The translations under genes and the position numbers were made by a program. This document shows, one piece after another, positions 3,997-21,007 of a stretch of DNA of 35,733 nt. The notes under the pieces were generated by a model. That model did no database searches. It saw only the letters and a program-made list of their open reading frames with translations, and was not told the DNA's origin. The DNA comes from Candidatus Tritonobacter lacicola (GTDB taxonomy: Bacteria > Auribacterota > Tritonobacteria > Tritonobacterales > Tritonobacteraceae): NCBI GenBank assembly GCA_030765135.1, contig JAVCDC010000124.1:1-35733 (forward strand). The letters are read 5' to 3'. Position 1 is the stretch's first letter, and the number at the start of each line of letters is the position of its first letter.

Positions 3997-5244
3997 GTGA
4001 AGGAAGTAAATCCCTATGTTCTGGCTCTGAAGCAGCTCGACAGAGTGGCAAAAAAAATAAACCTCGATCCCGGTATCCACGAGAAGCTGAAGTATCCCAA
4101 GAGAGCGCTCATCGTCTCTATCCCCGTTGTAATGGACGATGGAAGGCTGGAAGTATTTACGGGGTATCGCGTTCAGCACAACGTGGACCGGGGACCGTCG
4201 AAAGGCGGGATACGTTTCCATCCCGATGTTACCCTGGACCACGTTAAGGCGCTCGCCATGTGGATGACGTGGAAATGCGCTGCAATGGGCCTTCCCTATG
4301 GAGGCGCGAAGGGGGGGGTGACGTGCGACCCCAGGAAGATGTCAAGGAGCGAGGTGGAGAAGCTTTCCAGGCGCTACGCGACCGAGATCGCTATCGTAAT
4401 AGGTCCTGACAGGGACATACCCGCCCCGGACGTTTATACGAATCCCCAGATTATGGGATGGATGATGGATACATACAGCATGCACGTGGGGCATGCCGTG
4501 CCTGGCGTTGTCACGGGCAAGCCTGTCGAGATCGGCGGGGCTTACGGAAGGGTTGAGGCGACCGCCAGGGGCTGTCTTTTCACCGTCGGGGAGGCCCTCA
4601 AATGCTCCGGGAAGGAGCTGAAGGGTTCAACTGTTGTTATCCAGGGGTACGGAAACGCGGGCTCTATCTCCCACAGGCTGGCCGAAGAGGAGGGTGCCCG
4701 CGTTATCGCGGTGTCCGACAGCAAGGGAGGCATCCTAAACAGCGAGGGTCTCAGTTTTTCCGGGGTTTCGGCCCATAAGAAAGAAACGGGTTCCGTAGTA
4801 GGGTTTCCCGGCGCGCATCCCCTCACCAACGCGGAGCTCCTGGAGCTGGAGTGCGACCTGCTGATACCGGCGGCCCTGGAGAACCAGATCACGGCCGATA
4901 ACGCGCCGAGGCTGAAGGCCGGTTTAATCGCCGAGGCCGCCAACGGGCCGACGACAGAGGAGGCAGGCGAGATACTTTTCAAGAGAAAGATCCCCGTTAT
5001 TCCTGATATCATAGCCAACGCCGGCGGCGTCGTCGTCAGCTGCTTCGAGTGGGCGCAGAACCTCATGGGCTATTTCTGGACGGAGGATGAGGTCAATAAG
5101 AAGCTGCATGATATCATGATCCCGGCTTTCAGGAACACTTACGAGCTGGCCGGGCAAGAGGGTATAGATTTGCGGCTGGCGGCTTACATGCTGGCCGTGG
5201 AGAGGGTAGCCGCCGCCGTAAAGATAAGAGGGGTTTACCCCTGA
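3997..5244 (+). CDS. gdhA: Glutamate dehydrogenase, second tandem copy
   Basis: Paralogue of the preceding gene, 415 aa, with a complete set of catalytic residues: Lys69, Lys93, Lys105 and Asp145. The dinucleotide motif is GYGNAG (217-222) with Asp241 after strand 2. Start is GTG at 3997 with AAGGA about 6 nt upstream. The copies are strongly alike in the substrate domain (GPSKGGIRFHP and ALAMWMTWKC are shared exactly) but diverge in the nucleotide domain and after it, so they may differ in coenzyme or regulation rather than being a fresh duplication. A tandem pair forming a hetero-complex with one regulatory subunit is known from Thermus; here neither copy has visibly lost its active site. 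A strong terminator follows at 5269-5301. Confidence 0.92.
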   Translation: MKEVNPYVLALKQLDRVAKKINLDPGIHEKLKYPKRALIVSIPVVMDDGRLEVFTGYRVQHNVDRGPSKGGIRFHPDVTLDHVKALAMWMTWKCAAMGLPYGGAKGGVTCDPRKMSRSEVEKLSRRYATEIAIVIGPDRDIPAPDVYTNPQIMGWMMDTYSMHVGHAVPGVVTGKPVEIGGAYGRVEATARGCLFTVGEALKCSGKELKGSTVVIQGYGNAGSISHRLAEEEGARVIAVSDSKGGILNSEGLSFSGVSAHKKETGSVVGFPGAHPLTNAELLELECDLLIPAALENQITADNAPRLKAGLIAEAANGPTTEEAGEILFKRKIPVIPDIIANAGGVVVSCFEWAQNLMGYFWTEDEVNKKLHDIMIPAFRNTYELAGQEGIDLRLAAYMLAVERVAAAVKIRGVYP

Positions 5245-5268
5245 TCAGCGACTCGAGGCAGAGCCGGA

Positions 5269-5301
5269 ATCAGCCCCGATAAAGATCGGGGCTGATTTTT
5301 T
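5269..5301 (+). terminator. Rho-independent terminator after the glutamate dehydrogenase pair
   Basis: Perfect 12-bp stem ATCAGCCCCGAT / ATCGGGGCTGAT with an AAAG loop, running into six T at 5296-5301. It lies 24 nt after the second glutamate dehydrogenase stop and separates this operon from the reductase genes. Confidence 0.92.
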
Positions 5302-18990: not shown

Positions 18991-19788
18991 TCAGTAGCTG
19001 TACTCGTCGGATGGGAAGGTCCCCTTCTCGACATCCTCTTTGTAGCGCCCGATCGCTTCTCTCATCGTCGCGCCTATATCGGCGTACCTCTTGACGAACT
19101 TAGGTGTGAACCTGCTGAAGAGGCCGAGCATGTCGTGCGTCACCAGGATCTGACCGTCGCAGCGTGGCCCCGCCCCTATTCCGATCGTGGGAATAGAGAG
19201 CTTATCCGTTATTGCCTGGGCCAGCTCCGCCGGTATGCACTCGAGGACGATGGCGAAGGCGCCGGCCCCCTCCATCGCGAGTGCGTCCTCGACGAGCCTC
19301 TCCGCCTCGGGCGCCTTGCGACCCTGGACTTTGTAGCCGCCCATGAGCAGCACGTCCTGGGGCGTCAGGCCTATGTGGCCCAGAACGGGTATGCCCGCGT
19401 CGATGATTGCCTTAACACGCGATGAGACCTCTTTCCCTCCCTCGAGTTTAACTGCTTCGGCGTGCGCCTCTTTGACCAGGCGTCCCGCGTTTCGCACAGT
19501 CTCCTGGTCGTTTATCTGGAAGGACATGAACGGCATGTCGCTGACGAGGAGGGCGGAGTCGTTCCCCCTTGCGACGGCCTTGGTGTGGTGGATTATCTCC
19601 TCCATGGTGACGGGGAGCGTGTTCTCGTACCCCAGGACGACCATCCCGAGAGAGTCGCCCACGAGGAGCACGTGGACGCCCGCCTCGTTGGCTATTTGCG
19701 CCGTGGCGTAATCGTACGCCGTCAGGGCCACGATCTTGCGCCCCTCCTTCTTCATTTTTTTCAGCGTCGCAGTCGTTATCTTCTTCAT
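18991..19788 (-). CDS. panB: 3-methyl-2-oxobutanoate hydroxymethyltransferase
   Basis: 265 aa, standard length. Transfers a hydroxymethyl group from methylenetetrahydrofolate to alpha-ketoisovalerate to form ketopantoate. Family motifs: ALTAYDYATAQIANEAG, VLLVGDSLGMV, the metal-binding and substrate region up to GLTPQDVLLMGGYKVQG, and IGIGAGPRCDGQILVTHD. Its ATG overlaps by 4 nt the stop of the upstream transposase-like gene, an odd neighbour for a vitamin gene. It needs a folate cofactor, and folK lies two genes upstream. Confidence 0.96.
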   Translation of the reverse strand: MKKITTATLKKMKKEGRKIVALTAYDYATAQIANEAGVHVLLVGDSLGMVVLGYENTLPVTMEEIIHHTKAVARGNDSALLVSDMPFMSFQINDQETVRNAGRLVKEAHAEAVKLEGGKEVSSRVKAIIDAGIPVLGHIGLTPQDVLLMGGYKVQGRKAPEAERLVEDALAMEGAGAFAIVLECIPAELAQAITDKLSIPTIGIGAGPRCDGQILVTHDMLGLFSRFTPKFVKRYADIGATMREAIGRYKEDVEKGTFPSDEYSY

Positions 19789-20477
19789 TTTATCAGTTCT
19801 TTTATCCGCTCCATGTCTTTAAGTGCCCATTCGTTTACGAAATTTTTATACTCTTTGCGGCTCTCTTTCCCGAAATATCCTAGCACAAAATCGGTTTTTA
19901 TTACAGAAGGGAAGTTCTTGATCCCGATGTAATCGAGATAGCTTGACCACCTGTATGATTTAAGGAAGGCGTTTGCGGCGTTCCAGTCTGCCACTCCCCT
20001 CTCCTTCCAGTCACCCTGGAAAAGGTTCAATGGATTTAAATGAATGTACCTCGAAAGGTGAATCAAGTACTCATCCTTCTCGATCGCTTTTGCCTTGAAC
20101 CTCCCTTCAAACAGTACACCTTTGCGCGAATATTTTTGGTTAAAGAATAGCGCATAGGCCATTCCCAGTTTATGCATGAATTTGCTTATCCCCTGTTCCT
20201 GTATTTGCCTCAGTATCAGGTGATAGTGATTTGGCATGATGGAGAAACAATGCACCTCCGCAAGCAGTTCCCTCTCCCTCTTAATAATGGCCTCCGGGAG
20301 GCCATTAATTGTTTTAAAACGTTGGCCGACGTTAAATATGTGCTTGGAATCATTCATTTCATATAGGTCGTGGATAAAACGATAGTAATCACGAGGATCA
20401 AAGAAGATCTGGCGTTTTTCAACGCCTCTATTATAGATATGATAGAATTTTCCAGTTGTGAATTGTATATTTCTCAT
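19785..20477 (-). CDS. REP-associated tyrosine transposase (RAYT), Y1_Tnp/IS200-like family
   Basis: 230 aa single-domain HUH nuclease. Visible are the metal-binding HYH (His84-Tyr85-His86 in MPNHYHLIL) and the probable nucleophile Tyr144 in LSRYIHLNPL; the N-terminal FYHIYNRGVEKRQIF pattern is typical of RAYTs. RAYTs are single-copy, non-mobile relatives of IS200/IS605 TnpA thought to move or process REP palindromes. Here a perfect palindrome (20478-20502) directly precedes the ATG, and an inverted copy of its core lies inside the gene (20286-20306), read as residues 57-65. The catalytic residues are intact. Start and stop overlap those of folK and panB by 4 nt, so the gene is wired into a biosynthetic operon. 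Confidence 0.88.
   Translation of the reverse strand: MRNIQFTTGKFYHIYNRGVEKRQIFFDPRDYYRFIHDLYEMNDSKHIFNVGQRFKTINGLPEAIIKRERELLAEVHCFSIMPNHYHLILRQIQEQGISKFMHKLGMAYALFFNQKYSRKGVLFEGRFKAKAIEKDEYLIHLSRYIHLNPLNLFQGDWKERGVADWNAANAFLKSYRWSSYLDYIGIKNFPSVIKTDFVLGYFGKESRKEYKNFVNEWALKDMERIKELIK
20286..20306. repeat. REP-like palindrome core inside the RAYT coding sequence
   Basis: Arms AATGGCCTCC (20286-20295) and GGAGGCCATT (20297-20306) around a central G. It is the exact reverse complement of the core at 20480-20500, so the two copies are inverted. It keeps the frame and encodes INGLPEAII. Confidence 0.85.
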
Positions 20478-21007
20478 ATAATGGCCTCCCGGAGGCCATT
20501 ATTATAATTCAAAGGGAGGGGTTTGGGGTAGAGCTTTACGGCGGGGGTTTTGCCCAGGTCGGCCAAGAGCTGTTTTAGCGGTTTATGCAGGCATGGATGG
20601 ATTAGGTTTTCATCGATCTCGAGGAGGGGAATGAGGACGAAGGCGCGCTTGTGGAGCTCCCGGTGCGGGATGGTGAGGTCCTTCTCTTCCACAAAGAGAT
20701 TCCCGTAGAGGAGTATGTCGAGGTCGACAACGCGAGGGCCGTGGCGAACAGACTCCTTCCGCCCCATTGCTCGCTCTATACCCTTCAGGGCCTTAAGGAG
20801 ATATAGAGGGGTGAGGTCCGATTCCGCCTCGATGACGCAGTTCAAGTACCATTCCTGGGGCGGGCCTCCGACGGGCTCGGTCTCATAGATGGAAGACGTC
20901 GATCGTACGGTGGTATCCGGTAGCGCCGCGACCCTCTTTATGGCATCGATGAGGTTACGGTGCTGGTTCCCCACGTTCGAGCCGATGCCGATAAAGAGCC
21001 TGTTCAT
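20474..21007 (-). CDS. folK: 2-amino-4-hydroxy-6-hydroxymethyldihydropteridine pyrophosphokinase
   Basis: 177 aa. Transfers pyrophosphate from ATP to hydroxymethyldihydropterin in folate synthesis. The family pattern is full: FIGIGSNVGNQHRNL, SSIYETEPVGGPPQEWYLNCV, and the signature RHGPRVVDLDILLYG (88-102) with the metal-binding DLD. The last 11 residues (NYNNGLREAII, 167-177) come from the palindromic repeat at 20478-20502 and are not part of the usual fold, so the native end seems to have been replaced or lengthened. No folB or folP is present here. It is separated by 117 nt from dapL upstream. Confidence 0.93.
   Translation of the reverse strand: MNRLFIGIGSNVGNQHRNLIDAIKRVAALPDTTVRSTSSIYETEPVGGPPQEWYLNCVIEAESDLTPLYLLKALKGIERAMGRKESVRHGPRVVDLDILLYGNLFVEEKDLTIPHRELHKRAFVLIPLLEIDENLIHPCLHKPLKQLLADLGKTPAVKLYPKPLPLNYNNGLREAII
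20478..20502 (-). promoter_or_regulatory. REP-like palindrome containing the RAYT Shine-Dalgarno sequence
   Basis: A perfect inverted repeat: 12-bp arms ATAATGGCCTCC and GGAGGCCATTAT around one base. It abuts the RAYT ATG. On the transcribed strand the right half supplies GGGAGG, 7 nt before the ATG, which is an ideal ribosome binding site but is paired with CCTCC when the hairpin forms. The same bases are also the last codons of folK. Ribosomes finishing folK would melt the stem, so translation of the RAYT may depend on folK translation (inference). Confidence 0.75.

Follow-up and report, generated by a model that had tools for sequence, protein, structure and literature searches.

A perfect palindrome shared by the end of folK and the start of a RAYT gene in Candidatus Tritonobacter lacicola is probably a REP-like repeat cognate to the RAYT

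The window, which is the whole analysed stretch of 35,733 nucleotides, carries a gene for a RAYT/TnpAREP-like transposase between folK and panB, and a perfect palindrome at the folK/RAYT junction. We conclude that this palindrome is probably a REP-like repeat cognate to the RAYT, and that the two entered the folK-panB operon as one unit (probability of about 0.74). Partnerships between such repeats and their transposases are already known, and the arrangement at folK/RAYT is an unusual variant of them.

A perfect palindrome joins folK to the RAYT gene

The features of the cluster are as follows.

18991 to 19788, minus strand: panB (TIGR00222), whose start overlaps the RAYT stop as ATGA, without a good visible Shine-Dalgarno (SD) sequence
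19785 to 20477, minus strand: RAYT/TnpAREP-like HuH (Y1) transposase of 230 aa (PF01797, E = 7.9e-9; NHYH at residue 83, YIHLNP at residue 144; 41% GC)
20285 to 20307, minus strand: a second palindrome copy, which the RAYT gene reads in frame as residues 58-64 (NGLPEAI)
20474 to 20477, minus strand: ATGA overlap between the folK stop TGA (20474-20476) and the RAYT start ATG
20474 to 21007, minus strand: folK (HPPK), 177 aa (PF01288, TIGR01498), its last nine residues encoded by the repeat and its flank
20478 to 20502, minus strand: junction copy of the REP-like palindrome, ATAATGGCCTCC-G-GGAGGCCATTAT
20485 to 20490, minus strand: GGGAGG, the SD of the RAYT, in the 3' half of the palindrome and 7 nt from the ATG
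20491 to 20495, minus strand: CCTCC in the complementary 5' half, opposite the SD, as read from the sequence

Direct reading of positions 20478-20502 gave an inverted repeat with 12-bp arms, a 1-nt centre (12-1-12) and no mismatch. On the minus strand it runs 5' to 3' as ATAATGGCCTCC G GGAGGCCATTAT and then ATGA, within a junction that reads TTGAATTATAATAATGGCCTCCGGGAGGCCATTAT-ATGAGAAATATAC, and it abuts the RAYT ATG at 20477. The C-terminus of FolK (...N-N-G-L-R-E-A-I-I*) is read through it. The RAYT start is backed by homologues, which show MRKxxFxxGKFYHIYNRG at the N-terminus in the same register. None of 100 shuffles of the window gave the two palindrome sites found (shuffle mean 0.00). 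The original prediction had described a perfect 25-bp palindrome against the RAYT ATG, GGGAGG 7 nt from that ATG with CCTCC in the 5' half, last FolK residues encoded by the palindrome, and a stop/start overlap of ATGA; this account of the junction is correct in all details. The second copy at 20285-20307 and eight further copies in the genome had been missed. An assembly chimera was judged unlikely, as the ATGA joins are exact on either side and lie in one contig.

The RAYT gene lies between folK and panB as a probable insertion

The window RAYT has both the HuH and the YIxxNP motifs of an HuH-Y1 transposase domain. Its predicted fold (mean pLDDT 87.7) matched best with 4er8, a TnpAREP-REP hairpin complex (E = 3.3e-6), and its score with the NCBI equivalog NF047646 was 40.9 bits, under the cut-off of 80 bits. 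In nearly all phylum relatives tested, panB directly follows folK, often with an ATGA overlap, and none of those tested has a RAYT between the two genes. The GC content of the RAYT gene is 41%, against 56-62% in the neighbouring genes. Because the relatives lack a RAYT at this place and its GC content is low, the comparison indicates that a RAYT unit was inserted between folK and panB, with each join now being ATGA.

FolK is mostly 158-176 aa long in relatives and 177 aa here, with an unusually long tail past the domain and final residues encoded by the repeat. A different perfect palindrome, odd and 39 bp long, runs from the folK stop, before panB, in a genome from another family of the same phylum (G013; L116, 1379-1417). 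That genome has two exact copies of its core and one with 3 mismatches.

Ten copies of the palindrome are dispersed in the genome

Exactly ten copies of the palindrome (consensus AAATRATGGCCTCCSGGAGGCCATYATTT) were found in the 3.2-Mb assembly, which is 94% complete. Besides the two at the RAYT gene they are located as follows.

L003: overlaps the stop of a TIGR04073-like gene, at the gene end
L004: about 13 nt past the stop of a 5'-nucleotidase-like gene
L005, 1497-1525 (contig C98 of genome G000): within a family 2 glycosyltransferase gene, right after the NPDS motif
L006: overlaps the hypE stop
L007: start of an ERCC4-type nuclease gene
L008 and L009: the two remaining of the ten
L010: overlaps the stop of the same nuclease gene as L007

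A cluster of three copies, at the hypE end and at the start and end of the ERCC4-type nuclease gene, is contained in about 1.1 kb (L146, 4936-6002, contig C110 of G000). A 2015 study by Liang is said to have placed REPs near stop codons. Placement at gene ends is typical of REPs (PMC3733652).

The 19-bp core is invariant across the ten copies except for the centre base. The outer arms vary yet stay complementary, with 97.1% of cells paired and four pairs showing double-sided changes, a result that none of 500 shuffles reached. Their consensus is AAAT/ATTT with covarying departures, and the covariation spans 29 bp around the 1-nt centre; the idea that the outer arms are random host sequence was dropped for this reason. 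The assembly held no decayed copies of the core (≤2 mismatches), and a control search with the reversed pattern gave 0 matches. Pattern scans of 58 other genomes, GTDB contigs and IMG/VR viral contigs found no copy of the palindrome, as expected for a lineage-specific REP.

A dispersed palindrome that is also present at the RAYT locus is what a REP would be, and two of the ten copies lie in or at the 0.7-kb RAYT gene (chance probability about 2e-6, rising to 1.6e-5 when 7 RAYTs are taken into account). Together with the palindromes that related RAYTs have of their own at the same positions (see below), this enrichment supports the earlier proposal that the palindrome is the RAYT's own REP-like repeat. 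The repeat is not a canonical REP, because it has no conserved GTAG-type guide beside the stem and only ten copies: the alignment of the ten revealed no conserved GT[AG]G at the stem foot, and REPs usually number more than 100. A DNA-uptake signal was judged less likely, since most occurrences of the half site ATGGCCTCC (20 of 25 in 143 kb) fall within the palindromes. A parS-like or operator site, a terminator and chance were each likewise judged less likely than a repeat cognate to the RAYT.

Some copies at gene ends have A- and T-rich flanks (L003, L007), as dispersed bidirectional transcription terminators would. That the repeat serves as such a terminator is nonetheless hardly credible: copies lie within coding genes, termination needs no identical cores, and an intrinsic terminator test found no U-run after the folK/RAYT junction stem, where ATGAGAAATA comes next. 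A separate hairpin at 5268-5297 of the window, with 13-bp arms and a 4-nt loop, may be an ordinary terminator.

In the glycosyltransferase, alignment showed the palindrome-coded segment to be gap-free against nearly all of about 19 homologues. The host codons seem to have been overwritten by the palindrome, not split by it, with gene length kept. This length-neutral copy and the in-frame copy before the HuH motif of the RAYT are the more unusual points of the system.

Related RAYT genes have palindromes of their own

Related RAYT loci (L053-L113) from Patescibacteria, Bacteroidota and other groups were scanned for palindromes, and densities were counted over 53 of them. Palindromes were about 20 times denser at the RAYT genes, with 58 in 49 kb, than in the rest of these 53 loci, with 19 in 333 kb (p = 1e-35). 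By position, 22 were upstream, 24 downstream and 9 internal, and the strict scan gave internal palindromes in nine of the 53 loci. The loci of the class's RAYT paralogues, which are mostly longer, contained 3 palindromes in 73 kb. At the related RAYTs the palindromes are perfect, differ from lineage to lineage, and typically lie 10-60 nt upstream of the start and 2-21 nt past the stop. The closest relative (L053, 46%) has its own palindrome pair on both flanks, and L059 is flanked on both sides as well; the L053 genome has three core copies, two of which flank the RAYT. In the L058 genome the core of its own palindrome occurs 17 times, mostly as inverted doublets. In Cytophagaceae, the RAYTs L068, L075, L077, L080, L082 and L085 have palindromes on their flanks that are nearly identical and always equally far from the gene, which resembles a conserved mobile unit; no 3' palindrome was seen at L080 in the sequence examined.

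The window RAYT is not flanked by two inverted copies; one copy is upstream, one is internal, and none follows the stop. The internal copy is the identical palindrome, inverted relative to the junction copy as judged by the centre base, and residues 58-64 lie in a low-confidence loop preceding the HuH strand in the predicted fold. An in-frame internal palindrome occupies the same stretch before the HuH motif in L055, L057 and L058. The one in L055 differs from the pair flanking that gene, and in L057 and L058 the RAYT gene is broken further downstream of it. L058, a Moraniibacteriota RAYT, has a double palindrome (4153-4206; two GGCTCTwAGAGCC units) in frame before HuH, followed by a frameshift close to where a short stretch (CTAAACC) is duplicated. 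In the Bacteroidota examples the internal palindrome is placed after HuH.

These loci also bear on a different role for the palindromes, as dyad sites bound by another DNA-binding protein and with no relation to the RAYT; an operator or a chromosome-organising site would be of this kind. Chromosome-organising sites are likewise perfect and invariant, and some are inside genes; the perfection, the invariance, the number of about ten and the location of some copies within genes would suit that explanation. We consider it very improbable, however, because two copies are in the RAYT gene, the repeat is lineage-specific, covariation of the outer arms extends over 29 bp around a 1-nt centre, and other RAYTs carry different palindromes at equivalent places.

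The junction hairpin is predicted to mask the RAYT ribosome binding site

The junction hairpin was predicted at -15.1 kcal/mol, and the SD bases had a predicted unpaired probability of ≤0.02, apart from the first G at the loop end. Opening the region from -15 to +3 at the RAYT start was calculated to cost 17.4 kcal/mol, the highest value among seven starts in the cluster (0.6-14.7 for the other six). Over the whole 101-nt junction, the gain in stability relative to shuffles was only modest (z = -1.55). With the hairpin folded as predicted, free initiation on the RAYT would be very costly (about 17 kcal/mol). The stem would thus pair the transposase SD in the manner of IS200, and the 4-nt overlap known from coupled pairs is present at 20474-20477. 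Since the predicted hairpin hides the SD and folK overlaps the RAYT by these 4 nt, coupled, low-level synthesis is the best prediction for the RAYT, and coupling to folK is likely the default. The start of panB is open (0.6 kcal/mol) and has no clear SD, so panB likely relies on translation of the RAYT, which argues against a silent RAYT.

Sixteen related RAYT loci were examined at their starts. Where one of these has a palindrome, 10-13 nt or more usually separate its end from the ATG, and none of the 16 has an SD within the palindrome. As no SD lies inside these palindromes, SD masking is not conserved in this RAYT type. A stem still lies within the 30S footprint upstream of several of these genes, and such positioning is common. 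In the genome studied here, GGAGG/CCTCC is part of all ten repeat copies, most of them away from any start codon. Because the SD and its complement belong to the dispersed repeat, masking may be a by-product of repeat position. The simplest account is that it follows from which repeat happened to land at this site, and selection for masking may also have acted. The original prediction held that the RAYT is silent unless folK is translated. The coupling part of that claim agrees with the predicted masking and the ATGA overlap, whereas a dedicated silencing function is at odds with the GGAGG/CCTCC of all ten copies and the SD-free palindromes of the 16 related loci.

The stem could alternatively be a purpose-built autoregulatory switch, selected to keep the RAYT silent unless folK is translated and bound by the RAYT, as RNA or DNA, to repress its own synthesis. 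Strong predicted masking, the ATGA overlap and the stems that several related RAYTs have upstream within the 30S footprint would fit such a switch, as would related published designs, namely the RBS-sequestering stem of IS200 (PMC12594629) and coupled pairs with hairpins (PMC12548453). We regard it as unlikely, given that the SD and its complement recur in all ten dispersed copies, most of them not at a start codon, that palindromes of related RAYTs have no SD, and that panB downstream appears to need RAYT translation. Binding of the RAYT to its own mRNA or promoter is speculation.

A model for the RAYT-repeat unit in the folK-panB operon

On the preferred reading, a unit of RAYT plus repeat would have inserted into the folK-panB operon, where one repeat copy was turned into the folK 3' end and the RAYT ribosome binding site, and the other came to sit in a tolerant loop of the RAYT protein. 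Judging from its family, the RAYT presumably recognises the single-stranded DNA hairpin and has carried the repeat to its ten sites. Once transcribed into mRNA, the repeat is predicted to form a strong stem over the SD; the masking would have been brought along by the repeat's own sequence. Sequence and folding predict that a ribosome finishing folK would open the stem and re-initiate at ATGA, that the RAYT would be made only then, and that its translation would feed panB via the second ATGA.

Several observations stand against this reading: no palindrome lies past the RAYT stop, the NF047646 score is below its cut-off, and the z value of the 101-nt junction is modest. Simple insertion also fails to account for copies in coding sequences that look length-neutral, as at least the glycosyltransferase copy does. 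That gap-free copy suggests a further reading, in which the repeat of this RAYT lineage would serve at once as a target of transposition, as a protein segment read in frame and as a mask over the start site, would spread by overwriting host DNA with gene length unchanged, and would tie RAYT output to translation of the host operon; we rate this as rather improbable.

With the RAYT and its cognate repeat inserted as proposed, the locus illustrates how an HuH enzyme, selfish or domesticated, can get locked into an essential vitamin operon. Host codons, a ribosome site and a predicted translational brake all come from the repeat, and panB appears to depend on RAYT translation. The findings extend RAYT-repeat pairing, in-frame internal repeats included, to a RAYT type whose motifs had no reported repeats, and the folK-RAYT junction offers a simple, testable locus for asking whether RAYT expression is limited by its own repeat.

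Comparison with known systems

The claim that such a unit was not known to be described was too strong, since RAYT-REP units, REPs overlapping RAYT ends, in-frame REPs in RAYT genes and RBS-hiding stems of IS200 have all been published. The nearest system is the REPtron of RAYT/TnpAREP and cognate REPs (Nunvar 2010, PMC2817692; Quentin 2018, PMC6006769). It shares with the window locus an HuH-Y1 protein, with a fold nearest TnpAREP (4er8), and a lineage-specific repeat that occurs at the gene as well as across the genome, frequently where genes have their 3' ends. Here, in contrast, there is no GTAG guide, the palindrome is perfect around a 1-nt centre, the copies number ten, and none flanks the gene on its 3' side. 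The NHYH and YIHLNP motifs resemble those of TnpAREP subclass 2.1, for which no REPs have been reported. In subclass 2.4, tnpAREP genes contain in-frame REP insertions, which generally lie between HuH and Y (PMC6006769). The window RAYT is similar in having a cognate palindrome within the gene with the frame intact, but its palindrome encodes residues 58-64, before HuH at residue 83 rather than between HuH and Y, and it is likewise before HuH in L055, L057 and L058.

Palindromic repeats read as protein within host genes are also found among in-gene REPs and Rickettsia palindromic elements (PMC3733652), from which the present repeat differs in sequence and in its glycosyltransferase copy, which is length-neutral and not inserted. 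A 5' stem-loop sequesters the RBS of IS200 tnpA (PMC12594629), and in both cases the element's stem covers the transposase SD, here by prediction; the stem described here, however, is formed by the dispersed repeat and doubles as a host gene's 3' end, with no leader of its own seen. Translational coupling between overlapping genes has been established in other cases (PMC12548453, PMC6728339), including pairs with a hairpin at the downstream start, such as VII/IX of phage f1 with a -4 overlap (PMC12548453; PMC6728339). The folK/RAYT pair has the same 4-nt stop/start overlap and a stem that upstream translation would open, and is distinguished by its downstream gene, a foreign RAYT inside a vitamin operon.
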